From Geothrix sp. (GTDB taxonomy: Bacteria > Acidobacteriota > Holophagae > Holophagales > Holophagaceae): a stretch of DNA of 64,000 nucleotides. Made by a program: the position numbers and the translations under genes. The stretch's first letter is position 1. Each line of letters starts with the position of its first letter. The stretch is from the NCBI RefSeq assembly GCF_030219325.1, contig NZ_CP126625.1, positions 2,592,857 through 2,656,856 of the forward strand, in the 5' to 3' direction. Below are positions 36,751 through 40,811 of the stretch, one piece after another. A model generated the notes under the pieces. It did not search any database and was not told where the DNA came from. It saw only the letters and a list, made by a program, of their open reading frames with translations.

Positions 36751-38316
36751 TCAATTCCAGTGCTTCAACGTCGGCCACAGTCCACGGATGGACACCTTAG
36801 GTTTCCGGCACAGGTAGATGGGCCGGTTCTCCTCCTCCATGCCCCAAGGGTGATGGTGCACGGCGGCCACCTGCACCGATTCGAAGACCCGTGACAGTCC
36901 CTCATCGCAGCCCAGGCAGATGTAGGTCGAATAATCCCGCTCCGGCGGGGCCCACAGCGAGTGGGCCTGGTGGGCGCAGATGGCCCGGGGGAGCCCACGG
37001 ACGGGCCCCAGGTGGTTGATGGCCCCGGCCTCGCCGTAGTTGGCGGCGTAGATGGCAGTGTTGGCGCGCTCCTCAGGGGTCAGCGAATGATAGATCTGCG
37101 CCACTTCATCTGCGAGTTCGGGCCAGCCGAACTGGTCACTCAGGCGCTGGTCCAACGGCCCTTCGTGGTGGACTTCCAGCTTGTCGGCCTTGAGCCCGAT
37201 GGCTTGCTGGTAGGCCAGCAACTGGCCCGGAGACAGCAAGGGAAGCAGGGCGGGGATGAGCACCGCCGTCACCGCGACGACCGCGGTGAGCAGCGTCGCC
37301 TTGGGCCACAGCCGGCCGCGGCTCCAGGCCTGCCTGGCCAGCCAGTCCTCCACGGCGACGGCACCAGCCGCGAACAACATGGGGTAGATGGCCGCCAGAT
37401 AGTAGTCCTTGGCGTGAAGCCCCATCATCAGCGCCAGCATGCCCAGGTAGAGGAGGCCCAGCACCCGGAGCCGGGATTGACGGCCGAACAGCAGGGAACA
37501 GAGCCCGGCGAACCAGATGGGGAAGAGCAGCGGGTGGAGGATCTGGATCTGCTGGCGGATGAAGGCCCATGGCCCGAGCACCACGTTCTTCCCCAGGCGC
37601 CGGATGTTGGCCATGTCCTCCAGCAATGGGTAGCCGTGGCGGATCTGCCAGAGCAGTGTCGGAAGGAAGATCAGCATCGCGAGGAACCCAGCCGCCCAGA
37701 ACCAGGGCCTCCGCAGCTCCCGTCGCAGGGGTGTCAAGAGGATGGCGACGAGCGCCGCGAGTCCAAAGACCAGCATGGCGTATTTGTTCTCGAGACCCAG
37801 GCCGGCCAGCACGCCAAACCAGAGCCATAGGCGGGAGTTCCCGGTCCGCACGATCTCGATGACCACCGCGACGCAGCCCATCCAGAACAGCGGCTCGAAG
37901 GCACCCACGCAGAGGATGCTGTCCATGCCGAGGAAGACCGGCACGCCCAGAATGCAGAGGCCTGTCAACAGCTGGGCGAAGCGGCCGCCGCCCAGCTGCC
38001 GCGCCAGCACCATGCTCAGCGCCACCGTGCCCGCCCCCGCCAGGGCGGGCAGCAGGCGCACGACGGGTAGGGATCCGCCCAGCCACGACGCGACCTTGGC
38101 GTAGCCCGCAATCAGCGGCGCGTCATCCACATAGCCCCAGCCCATGTGCCGGGCGCAGTCCAGGAAGTACAGCTCGTCACGGAAGAACCCATAGGCGTTG
38201 CTGGAGAGGAGATGCAGCAGCAGCTTGAGACCCACCAGCAGGCCAAGCAGACGCCAGTCCCAAGGCTGGACGGTCCACCGGCTCGTTTCCAGGGTCGAAT
38301 CCTGACGATCACTCAA
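36751..38316 (-). CDS. GT39/ArnT-like integral membrane glycosyltransferase
   Basis: The product is 521 aa with about ten or more transmembrane helices. The first loop contains the conserved acidic motif (FFRDELYFLDCARHMGWGY) followed by VDDAPLI, as in polyprenyl-phosphate-sugar-dependent GT-C enzymes of the PMT_2/ArnT group. The soluble C-terminal periplasmic domain (about residues 340-521) carries HLGPVRGLPRAICAHQ and a HHHPWGMEEENRPIYLCRKP segment. Such enzymes move sugars from lipid carriers to lipid A, proteins or other acceptors; the target is unknown. Confidence 0.8.
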   Translation of the reverse strand: MSDRQDSTLETSRWTVQPWDWRLLGLLVGLKLLLHLLSSNAYGFFRDELYFLDCARHMGWGYVDDAPLIAGYAKVASWLGGSLPVVRLLPALAGAGTVALSMVLARQLGGGRFAQLLTGLCILGVPVFLGMDSILCVGAFEPLFWMGCVAVVIEIVRTGNSRLWLWFGVLAGLGLENKYAMLVFGLAALVAILLTPLRRELRRPWFWAAGFLAMLIFLPTLLWQIRHGYPLLEDMANIRRLGKNVVLGPWAFIRQQIQILHPLLFPIWFAGLCSLLFGRQSRLRVLGLLYLGMLALMMGLHAKDYYLAAIYPMLFAAGAVAVEDWLARQAWSRGRLWPKATLLTAVVAVTAVLIPALLPLLSPGQLLAYQQAIGLKADKLEVHHEGPLDQRLSDQFGWPELADEVAQIYHSLTPEERANTAIYAANYGEAGAINHLGPVRGLPRAICAHQAHSLWAPPERDYSTYICLGCDEGLSRVFESVQVAAVHHHPWGMEEENRPIYLCRKPKVSIRGLWPTLKHWN

Positions 38317-38495
38317 ACCGGTGGCTCCTTCGGGTTGGACGCGGGCGTGCGGGGGCTTCGTGGAAGGGCCGTCAGAAGTTTAGTGCCATTCTGCGACATG
38401 CCCCCACTTCACGATGAGTCCCTGCGCATGAAACGCCAGCGGACGCCATTCGGCCCTTGTGCCGACAGGCATCCTGCGCCCACAATGGCTCCACC

Positions 38496-38567
38496 ATGAA
38501 GTCCACCCAGAATCTCATCCCGCGCCCTGGCCACCCCATTCCGGCGGCCGGGGGATTGCAGGTCTGA
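38496..38567 (+). CDS. Pro-rich leader peptide upstream of proBA (putative attenuator peptide)
   Basis: This is a 23-codon ORF (MKSTQNLIPRPGHPIPAAG, then GLQV and TGA) with four proline codons at positions 9, 11, 14 and 16. It ends 28 bp before an intrinsic terminator that itself precedes proB by 17 bp. The arrangement (short peptide rich in the pathway's end product, then terminator, then the biosynthetic genes) is the layout of ribosome-mediated transcription attenuation. No clear Shine-Dalgarno site is seen. A weak TTGTGC/CACAAT promoter would start the RNA only a few bases before the ATG. Confidence 0.55.
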   Translation: MKSTQNLIPRPGHPIPAAGGLQV

Positions 38568-38595
38568 ACGAGCATCAGGACCTCCCGCCCTCCCG

Positions 38596-38624
38596 CCCCC
38601 GACCCGCCGTGATCGGGGGTTTTT
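38596..38624 (+). terminator. intrinsic terminator/attenuator before proB
   Basis: CCCCCGA (38596-38602) pairs with TCGGGGG (38613-38619), followed by a TTTTTCTTT tract. GGCGGCCGGGGG at 38543-38554, inside the leader ORF just after its last proline codon, is largely complementary to the terminator's 5' arm and loop (38596-38610) and could form a competing antiterminator. Confidence 0.7.
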
Positions 38625-38640
38625 CTTTCGGCAGGTTTCC

Positions 38641-39498
38641 ATGAACCATCCTTCGAAGGCCTCCCCTGAACCCCTGCAGCGTGTCGGCCTGGCCAGCGCA
38701 CAGCGGATCGTGCTGAAGCTTGGCACCCAGGTCGTGCTGGATGGCGAGGGCAGGCCCGCCCTCAGCCGCCTCTACGGGCTCATGGAGACCGTGGCGGAGC
38801 TCCGCCGCCGGGGCGCCCAGCCCGTGCTGGTGTCCTCCGGGGCCGTGGGGCTCGGGGCCCGGCAGCTGGGCATCCGTCCCGAGAGCCTGTCCCAGAAGCA
38901 GGCCTGCGCGGCGGCTGGCCAGGGCCAGCTCATGTCCATCTACCAGGAGGGCTTCGCCCGCATGGGGCTCTGCGCCGCCCAGGTGCTGCTCACCGAGGAC
39001 GACTTCGCCGATCCCGTCCGTCACGCCAACCTCCGGCGCACGCTGGAGACGCTGCTGGAGCTGGGCGCCATCCCCGTGCTCAATGAGAACGACACCGTCT
39101 CCACCCTGGAGCTGGAACGCCCGGATCCCGGCCACACGCCCATCTTCAGCGACAACGACCACCTCTCGGCCCTGGTGGCCACGCATCTGGAGGCGGACCT
39201 GTTGATCCTGCTGTCGGACGTGACGGCCCTGCACACCGCCAACCCCGGCCTCGACCCCGATGCCACCCCCCTGACCGAGGTCCCCTTCGGCGCCGACCTG
39301 CGGGCCAACCTGGAGGGCGGCTCCGACCGCGGCCGGGGCGGCATGGTCAGCAAGGTGGAGGCGGCCCGCGCCGCCGCCCGGGCGGGGGTTCCCGTGGTGC
39401 TGGCCTCGGGACTCGCCGTCCACATCCTGGCCCGGATCCTCTCAGGCGAATCCGTGGGCACCCTCTTCCTCGCCGCACCCAGGGGAGGCCGGTCATGA
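38641..39498 (+). CDS. proB: glutamate 5-kinase
   Basis: This enzyme phosphorylates L-glutamate to gamma-glutamyl phosphate, the first and feedback-inhibited step of proline synthesis. The 285-aa product has the amino-acid-kinase fold: RIVLKLGTQVVL, VSSGAVGLGARQLG, LNENDTVST and GRGGMVSKVEAARAA. It lacks the C-terminal PUA domain of the ~367-aa E. coli enzyme, as many bacterial ProB do. The stop overlaps the proA start by four bases (ATGA). Upstream lies a putative attenuator. Confidence 0.95.
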   Translation: MNHPSKASPEPLQRVGLASAQRIVLKLGTQVVLDGEGRPALSRLYGLMETVAELRRRGAQPVLVSSGAVGLGARQLGIRPESLSQKQACAAAGQGQLMSIYQEGFARMGLCAAQVLLTEDDFADPVRHANLRRTLETLLELGAIPVLNENDTVSTLELERPDPGHTPIFSDNDHLSALVATHLEADLLILLSDVTALHTANPGLDPDATPLTEVPFGADLRANLEGGSDRGRGGMVSKVEAARAAARAGVPVVLASGLAVHILARILSGESVGTLFLAAPRGGRS

Positions 39499-40811
39499 CC
39501 ACGGCAAGCACCGATCCCGAGGCCATCCACCGCATGGCGCAGGCCGCCCGCGAGGCCTCGCGGCGCCTGGCGACCACCCCCTCCGGGCTGCGCTCCGGCG
39601 TGCTCCTGCGCCTGGCTCAGGAGCTGGGCCGGCGCGCCGAGGAGATCCTCTCGGCCAACGCCCAGGATGTCCGCGCGGCGGCGGGCCTCATCGACTCGTC
39701 GGCCCTCGAGCGCCTGAAGCTGGACGCCGTCAAGCTCGACGCCATGGCAAAGGGCGTCCGCGCCGTGGCGGACCTGCCGGATCCCCTGCATCAGGTCCAG
39801 CTGCGGCGCGAGCTCGACGCGGGGCTCGAGCTCACCCGGGAAAGCTGTCCCCTGGGCGTGCTGTGCGTCGTCTTCGAGTCGCGGCCCGATGCCCTCATCC
39901 AGATCAGCGCCCTGGCCCTGAAGAGCGGCAACGCCGTGCTGCTCAAGGGCGGCAGCGAGGCCCGCCACTCCAATGCGGCGCTGCTCGCCGCGGTGCAGGC
40001 CGCCCTGCGGGACACGGGCATTCCCGAAGCCGCCGTGCAGGGCCTGCCGGATCGCGCGGCGGTCGCTGTGCTCCTGCAGCGCCCGGACCTGGTGGACCTG
40101 GTCATCCCCCGCGGCTCCCGGGAGCTGGTCCTGAGCCTCCAGGCCGCCACCCGCATTCCCGTGCTGGGCCACGCGGACGGGCTGTGCCACATGTTCCTCG
40201 ACGCGGCCGCGGACACCGCCATGGCCGTGGCCCTGGTGCGGGATGCCAAGCTGCAGTACCCCTCCGCCTGCAATGCCGTGGAGACCGTGCTGATCCACCG
40301 TGAAGCGGCGGCCCGGCTGCTGCCCGCCCTGGTGGCGGATCTCGCTCCCCGGGGCGTGGAGCTGCGCGGCTGCCCGAGCTGCTGCGAGCTGATCCCCGCC
40401 ATCGCGCCCGCCACCGACGCTGACTGGGATGCCGAGTACGGCATGCCCATCCTGGCCATGAAGGTGGTGGCTGACCTCGACGAGGCCCTAGCCCACATCC
40501 GCGCCCACGGCAGCGGCCACACCGAGGCCATCGTCACCGAGGACGCCGCCATCGCTGCCCGCTTCCTGGCCGAGGTGGACGCGGCGGGCGTCTTCCACAA
40601 TGCCTCGACCCGCTTCGCCGATGGCTTCCGGTACGGCTTCGGGGCGGAGGTCGGCATCAGCACCGGACGCCTCCACGCCCGCGGACCGGTCGGCCTGGAG
40701 GGCCTGCTCAGCTACCGCTACCTGCTCCGGGGCTCGGGGCAGCGGGTCGAGGACTATGCGGGGCCCGCCGCCCGCCCCTTCACGCACCGCGATCTCATTC
40801 CTGACGCATAA
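39495..40811 (+). CDS. proA: gamma-glutamyl phosphate reductase
   Basis: The product is 438 aa and makes glutamate-5-semialdehyde using NADPH. It has the aldehyde-dehydrogenase-like fold of ProA, with VVFESRPDALIQISALALKSGNA, the catalytic Cys in LQYPSACNAVETVL, and the C-terminal RGPVGLEGLLSYRYLLRGSGQ. It is translationally coupled to proB by ATGA overlap and is followed by a terminator-like hairpin. Confidence 0.95.
   Translation: MTTASTDPEAIHRMAQAAREASRRLATTPSGLRSGVLLRLAQELGRRAEEILSANAQDVRAAAGLIDSSALERLKLDAVKLDAMAKGVRAVADLPDPLHQVQLRRELDAGLELTRESCPLGVLCVVFESRPDALIQISALALKSGNAVLLKGGSEARHSNAALLAAVQAALRDTGIPEAAVQGLPDRAAVAVLLQRPDLVDLVIPRGSRELVLSLQAATRIPVLGHADGLCHMFLDAAADTAMAVALVRDAKLQYPSACNAVETVLIHREAAARLLPALVADLAPRGVELRGCPSCCELIPAIAPATDADWDAEYGMPILAMKVVADLDEALAHIRAHGSGHTEAIVTEDAAIAARFLAEVDAAGVFHNASTRFADGFRYGFGAEVGISTGRLHARGPVGLEGLLSYRYLLRGSGQRVEDYAGPAARPFTHRDLIPDA

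Follow-up and report, generated by a model that had tools for sequence, protein, structure and literature searches.

What is the function of a reading frame of 23 codons, carrying four prolines within eight codons, that stands with a terminator directly upstream of proB? Proline synthesis is a textbook case of ProB feedback control, and the first-pass annotation proposed for this region a ribosome-mediated attenuator of proBA. We examined the region in the window, that is, in the whole 64-kb stretch of DNA that was analysed. That reading was supported by conservation, by the match between codons and genes in sister operons, and by folding. As judged from sequence and modelled RNA structure, the element is very probably a transcription attenuator in which the ribosome senses charged tRNA-Pro. 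The features of the region are as follows:

38457..38462, + strand: −35-like hexamer TTGTGC (TTG in 25 of 26 relatives)
38481..38486, + strand: −10-like hexamer CACAAT (distance to the leader ATG identical in 26 of 26)
38496..38567, + strand: leader peptide ORF of 23 codons, MKSTQNLIPRPGHPIPAAGGLQV (start, stop and a length of 22-23 codons in 26 of 26 relatives)
38520..38543, + strand: regulatory codons 9-16 with four prolines (CCG, CCT, CCC, CCG)
38525..38532, + strand: region 1, CCCTGGCC, which can pair with GGCCGGGG at 38546-38553 by duplex calculation
38543..38554, + strand: region 2, GGCGGCCGGGGG, partner of region 1 or of the 5′ arm and loop of the terminator
38560..38583, + strand: inner hairpin AGGTC...GACCT around the stop codon, within the antiterminator
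38596..38619, + strand: terminator hairpin with stem CCCCCGA/TCGGGGG (stem in 26 of 26 relatives)
38596..38608 and 38613..38619, + strand: regions 3 and 4, parts of the terminator hairpin
38620..38628, + strand: T-tract TTTTTCTTT (identical in 15 of 26)
38641..39498, + strand: proB, glutamate 5-kinase, the putatively regulated gene (TIGR01027, 257 bits against a cut-off of 186)
39495..40811, + strand: proA, glutamate-5-semialdehyde dehydrogenase (NF001221/TIGR00407, above cut-off)

The leader upstream of proBA and its conservation

The genome of the window is a single contig of 3.73 Mb, and the named relatives nearest to it by ProB are Geothrix and Holophagaceae records. The proB and proA genes overlap by 4 nt. 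On their 5′ side, the neighbouring long ORF (36751-38316) lies on the minus strand and gave no match to NCBIfam. Because of this orientation, we read the segment 38317-38640 as a divergent promoter region; the terminator before proB does not serve the upstream gene. The open frame of proB reaches 748-818 aa in some members of the genus (L021, L023, L025-L027), which suggests a possible ProB-ProA fusion there.

Of 47 genomes of the genus searched for ProB, 28 gave a clear match. Two of these (G034 and G038) are cut at a contig end and were dropped, so that the conservation set consisted of 26 genomes, that of the window included. All 26, each with an intact region upstream of proB, carry the element, which comprises a promoter-like pair, a leader and a terminator hairpin. 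The cultured relative Geothrix fermentans DSM 14018 (L043) has the same element. Of the 26 leaders, 22 are 23 codons long and four are one codon shorter. In the window its prolines stand at codons 9, 11, 14 and 16 and its stop codon at 38565-38567, and the frame described by the first-pass annotation, with four prolines in eight codons, was thus found in the sequence as claimed. That annotation had also staked its proposal on conservation in close relatives. The frame was kept in 26/26 genomes, the proline of codon 11 in 26/26 and that of codon 9 in 25/26, followed by codon 14 (19/26) and codon 16 (15/26). At codons 9 and 11, the commonest codon is replaced in 12 instances, 11 of them by a synonymous codon, and the P-x-P spacing is kept in 25 of the 26 leaders.

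The proline richness of the whole leader by itself is hardly above the C-rich background: the mean number of CCN codons per leader is 4.65 in frame versus 3.65 and 4.54 in the two alternative frames. At codons 9-16 the means are 3.5 in frame versus 1.96 and 2.54. We also counted differences among the 23-codon leaders (22 in all), using pairs in which at most 25 of 69 sites differ. In these pairs, codon positions 1, 2 and 3 held 568, 510 and 640 differences, and 903 codon differences were non-synonymous and 262 synonymous. The peptide outside the prolines is poorly conserved and under little coding constraint, in keeping with a leader whose codons and RNA pairing count for more than its peptide.

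The choice of proline codons was compared with the six coding sequences of the window, which use CCC 129, CCG 43, CCT 14 and CCA 2 times. Across the 26 genomes, codon 9 of the leader is CCG in 20 and CCT in five, and codon 11 is CCT in 20 and CCC in six. Since CCC dominates usage, measured here in the window only, the leaders mostly avoid the commonest proline codon at these two positions. Codon bias of attenuation leaders is known and has been tied to selective charging of tRNA isoacceptors, as described in PMC1183508. Pairing of region 1 could be an alternative cause of the codon choice. Many proB and proC leaders, among them that of G065 from another genus, share the same six nucleotides, CCTAGC, at codons 11-12; the counterpart in the window is CCTGGC (38526-38531). 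Codon choice or pairing could explain this retention.

The end of the −10-like hexamer lies exactly 9 nt before the start codon of the leader in 26/26 genomes, and the TTG of the −35-like hexamer is separated from the −10-like hexamer by 17 or 18 nt in 25/26. Transcription usually starts 6-8 nt downstream of the −10 sequence. Given these two distances, the 5′ untranslated region of the leader mRNA would be about 1-3 nt long, and the mRNA is probably leaderless or nearly so.

The stem and T-tract that the first-pass annotation had placed before proB were both found, the stem in all 26 relatives. In addition to the genomes with the identical tract, eight of the 26 have other T-rich tracts and three have an interrupted one (TTCCTGTTT). 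The distance from the leader stop codon to the T-tract is 49-58 nt in the 26 genomes, and the terminator duplex has a mean z of −2.62 and is negative in 26/26. A strict scan, requiring an exact G+C arm of 5-6 bp followed by T4, revealed a single hairpin on both strands of the 64-kb window, namely that of the proB leader. The same strict hairpin scan of 18 more distant ProB loci (L052-L069; 300 nt upstream and the first 100 nt) gave none. A pattern search of the window's own genome for strong C5G/CG5 terminators returned three: those before proB and pheA, and one without a leader beside a tRNA-like sequence, the tRNA-like neighbour being judged by eye. A generic consensus scan of 38300-38800 reported no promoter and no terminator, because the hairpin loop is longer than the 8 that it allows and the promoter-like pair in the window fits only 7 of 12 consensus bases.

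Antiterminator pairing and the predicted switch

The claim that the G-rich GGCGGCCGGGGG is complementary to the terminator arm CCCCCGACCCGCC (38596-38608) was confirmed, with one mismatch and a bulge. Over the 26 leaders, the duplex of regions 2 and 3 has a mean z of −1.24 and is negative in 21, and the duplex of regions 1 and 2 has a mean z of −0.37 and is negative in 20. Folding of the stretch after the prolines, compared with shuffled region 2, gave a mean z of −1.08 over the 26. For the window alone, 17 of 100 shuffles do at least as well as the native G-rich segment in pairing with the terminator arm, which is not significant.

RNAalifold, applied to three subsets of the 26 leaders, returned mostly the terminator or an inner hairpin; covariation energy was low, and no one 2:3 structure was common to all. 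As the antiterminator differs between clades, a swap test was used instead, with 11 clade representatives and clades grouped by eye. For regions 2 and 3, the sum observed with their own partners was reached by 159 of 20000 permutations, and by 1155 of 20000 when the arm ended right after the C-run. For regions 1 and 2 it was reached by 12430 of 20000, which is not separable from chance. The statistical support for the antiterminator is moderate; the 1:2 hairpin, which contains the regulatory codons, is a possible pairing for which statistical support is absent.

The switch was modelled by folding at equilibrium with the ribosome placed at Pro9, Pro11, codon 14 or the stop codon, the terminator probability being taken from the full RNA. 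In the window, the probability that the 5′ arm of the terminator is held by upstream sequence was 0.97 at Pro9, 0.97 at Pro11, 0.86 at codon 14, 0.10 at the stop codon and 0.96 without a ribosome. The terminator probability at these positions was 0.00, 0.01, 0.96, 0.99 and 0.59, respectively. The rise from 0.00/0.01 to 0.99 bears out, within the folding model, the ribosome switch suggested before, in which a stall frees region 2 and a ribosome at the stop codon covers it. At codon 14 the terminator probability is already 0.96, and the model therefore requires the ribosome to wait at codons 9-11. Averaged over the 26 leaders, the arm is held upstream with a probability of 0.75 (Pro9), 0.76 (Pro11), 0.81 (codon 14), 0.08 (stop; low because region 2 is masked in the model) and 0.45 (without a ribosome), and in 24/26 it is held by more than 0.3 more at the Pro11 stall than at the stop. 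The corresponding terminator means are 0.77, 0.57, 0.92, 1.00 and 0.92. As the terminator wins at equilibrium in many stalled relatives, the model needs co-transcriptional folding.

The proposed mechanism can be set out as follows. Transcription would begin beside the leader ATG, and a ribosome would load onto the leaderless mRNA. With ample Pro-tRNA, the ribosome would reach the stop codon at 38565 and cover the G-rich region 2; the CCCCCGA/TCGGGGG hairpin would then form, and RNA polymerase would halt before proB. With scarce Pro-tRNA, the ribosome would wait at codons 9-11 and leave region 2 free to pair with the 5′ arm and loop of the terminator, so that transcription would proceed into proBA. 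The parts of this scheme, their conservation and the codon match in sister operons are read from sequence, and the switch from predicted folding. Because proline richness and the shuffles of the window are near chance, the weight of the case lies in conservation and in codon matching across operons.

Sister leaders and competing explanations

A search model was built from the 26 leaders and run on the 47 genomes of the genus; it was sequence-only, as the clades could not be covered by a single structure. Scans of more than 40 genomes use stricter filters, and the match counts for the genus and the phylum are lower bounds. The model gave at least 100 matches in the genus: 27 strong ones, four before a divergent proC, and 69 weaker ones. 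The strong matches are the 26 proB leaders and the leader of G044, which lies at a contig end. In four genomes of the genus without a ProB match, a proB-like leader stands before the divergent proC.

All 69 weaker matches (E up to 1e-3) were examined under one ORF-choosing rule, and the downstream genes were named by comparison with five reference proteins chosen after examination of the first 18 loci. Fifteen matches precede proC, and P-x-P is present in 15/15; 34 precede pheA, with at least three Phe codons in 34/34; 18 precede asnB, with at least two Asn codons in 18/18. The remaining two have no reference-protein match: one is a leader with an AIAII run before ilvA, and the other a Phe-rich leader before an unrelated frame. 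Among representatives, three proC genes, one pheA and one asnB passed their NCBIfam cut-offs. The mean proline share is 20.4% in proB leaders, 11.8% in those of proC, 3.9% in those of pheA and 10.2% in those of asnB. The Phe share is 18.9% in pheA leaders versus 1.7% in proB leaders, and the Asn share is 13.4% in asnB leaders versus 4.4% in proB leaders. Some cross-occurrence was observed: P-x-P in 7/18 asnB and 1/34 pheA leaders, and at least two Asn in 4/26 proB leaders. Across the sister operons, the identity of the leader codons follows the product of the next gene. As leaders of one gene are homologous, these matches amount to about four to five independent observations, not 69.

A proline leader precedes 25 of the 40 correctly placed proC genes of the genus (three more near contig ends were left out), and the other 15 have none. 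The window's own genome is among those with a leader, MIQSTVVHPRPSTLSAGGSCTPR, followed by a terminator before proC (G000:C1:638738-638809; L125/L169). This leader shares CCGCGCCCTAGC with many proB leaders. The same genome has a Phe-codon leader, MLISRRFFAFSFRTSGARPGGV, with a terminator before pheA (G000:C1:482565-482633; L089/L163). The pheA product is chorismate mutase/prephenate dehydratase, and its leader is built like that of proB.

Leaders with Asn codons stand before asnB at 18 loci of the genus (including L092, L095, L099, L101 and L168) and, at L159 in G053 from another genus, before an asnA-like gene, whose protein scores below the NCBIfam cut-off (97 bits versus 309). They are predicted to form an asparagine attenuator. 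The first-pass annotation mentions neither the leaders of proC, pheA and asnB nor a leaderless mRNA. At L207 (G034:C107, minus strand), a leader ending in LLHHAIAIITSRQGA is followed by a terminator and an ilvA fragment, likewise below cut-off (357 bits versus 411); an isoleucine attenuator is predicted here.

A clear ProB match is absent from five near-complete genomes of the genus (99-100%; G008, G017, G020, G029 and G032). Four of the five keep proC, and three (G008, G017 and G020) have a proline leader there. Proline auxotrophy or another route to P5C is possible in these organisms.

In the wider family, a clear ProB was found in eight further genomes. In G066, G070, G050 and G051, which belong to two other genera, the ProB match begins 2-23 nt past the stop codon of proC, and in 4/4 a proline leader and a terminator-like hairpin stand before the proC that heads proB; the T-tract of G051 is poor. 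An SPRPSH leader and a terminator precede proB in G065, and G069 has a proline leader, MLNLRPIPRPPFRPTGA, without a clear T-run. No leader was found at proB of G052 and G059. A scan of 297 genomes of the phylum gave leaders of any kind in at least 22, all of which belong to a single family (genera g1, g4 and g5); because it missed G065, which has a leader, this count shows only the reach of sequence similarity.

These comparisons also bear on other explanations of the element. The leader might be translated and sense translation in general (initiation, coupling or access of Rho), its proline codons merely reflecting the C-rich region 1. The similar whole-leader CCN counts in the other two frames and the weak overall coding signal agree with this. 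However, sister leaders built in the same way have Phe codons before pheA, Asn codons before asnB and Ile codons before ilvA, and proline codons recur before proC in other genera, and we regard this explanation as quite improbable. Less probable still is an ORF on which ribosomes stall because Pro-Pro bonds form slowly or EF-P is lacking, so that it reports the state of EF-P or translation instead of tRNA charging. Adjacent prolines (PPP) occur in five of the 26 leaders (L011, L014, L015, L017 and L018), but the other 21, that of the window included, have none, and it is the spaced P-x-P that is kept in 25/26. We give the least credence to the last two explanations. A terminator or insulator that simply precedes proB, the ORF being there by chance and without regulation, would suit the generic scan, which reports neither promoter nor terminator here, but the frame, length and promoter spacing of the ORF are kept in 26/26, and the upstream gene, on the other strand, provides no + strand transcript to end. 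T-boxes regulate proline genes in some Firmicutes, but a T-box or a metabolite riboswitch is equally hard to credit here, as Rfam gave no family at gathering score in the window, neither a T-box nor a curated amino-acid leader, and at E up to 1 the two matches in 38400-38700 belong to other families and lie far below their gathering scores.

Relation to known attenuators

Ribosome-mediated attenuation sensing charged tRNA-Pro can be compared with several described systems. Classical leader-peptide attenuators are those of the trp, his, phe, leu, ilv and thr operons of Proteobacteria and Actinobacteria. Like them, the element has a short ORF with end-product codons, competing pairings and an intrinsic terminator just before the first gene, and the pheA leader of the genus shares even its amino acid with the classical phe attenuator. 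Unlike in the classical cases, the predicted signal is proline (and asparagine), the targets are proB, proC and asnB, the host belongs to Acidobacteriota, the leader mRNA is probably leaderless, and the 1:2 hairpin is without statistical support. The proline T-box of Firmicutes shares the pathway and the signal, charging of tRNA-Pro; it reads the tRNA directly without a ribosome, however, and no T-box match was found at the proB leader.

The Salmonella mgtCBR (mgtP) and mgtA leaders also have proline codons in a short ORF, and low Pro-tRNA raises transcription of the coding region, as described in PMC3641672. Their targets, according to the same description, are mgtC and genes for Mg2+ transporters instead of those of proline synthesis, and mgtP has a Shine-Dalgarno-like sequence upstream; the likeness to our element is one of description. 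The ilvB-II attenuator of Corynebacterium, as presented in PMC10272879, likewise combines a short uORF containing product codons with a terminator and antiterminator, but its codons are for branched-chain amino acids and its host is one of the Actinobacteria. That 2023 paper reports that uORF attenuation of ilvB was inferred in further groups, Leptospira included, and cites a title according to which the C. glutamicum ilvBNC leader peptide is reportedly formed without a ribosome binding site.

The authors of a 2010 survey stated that, to their knowledge, no leader peptides had been shown outside Proteobacteria and Actinobacteria before their own Firmicutes case, and that in Acidobacteria almost no predicted attenuator had an associated function (PMC2965389). 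The words proline and asparagine are absent, as whole words, from the main text of a survey of Actinobacteria (PMC1262725). The first-pass annotation had called a proline leader new to its author. Our literature search, weakened in part by gene names that matched words like 'probable', gave no proBA proline leader and no asparagine leader among the entries listed. The signal and targets of the proBA attenuator are apparently undescribed, and priority is not certain.

We lean towards a broader reading in which Holophagaceae would use leaderless attenuators of one build, in which a few exchanged codons decide what is sensed: proBA and proC would have Pro, pheA Phe, asnB and the asnA-like gene Asn, and ilvA Ile. 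The proBA and proC elements would provide a predicted transcriptional proline sensor made from a short reading frame, and the Phe, Asn and Ile sister leaders serve as built-in specificity controls that make a change of the amino acid of the attenuator directly testable. If the reading is true, the proline leader sits before whichever gene heads the proline operon, proline and asparagine synthesis would each gain their first case of ribosome-mediated attenuation, and Acidobacteriota their first described set of such attenuators.
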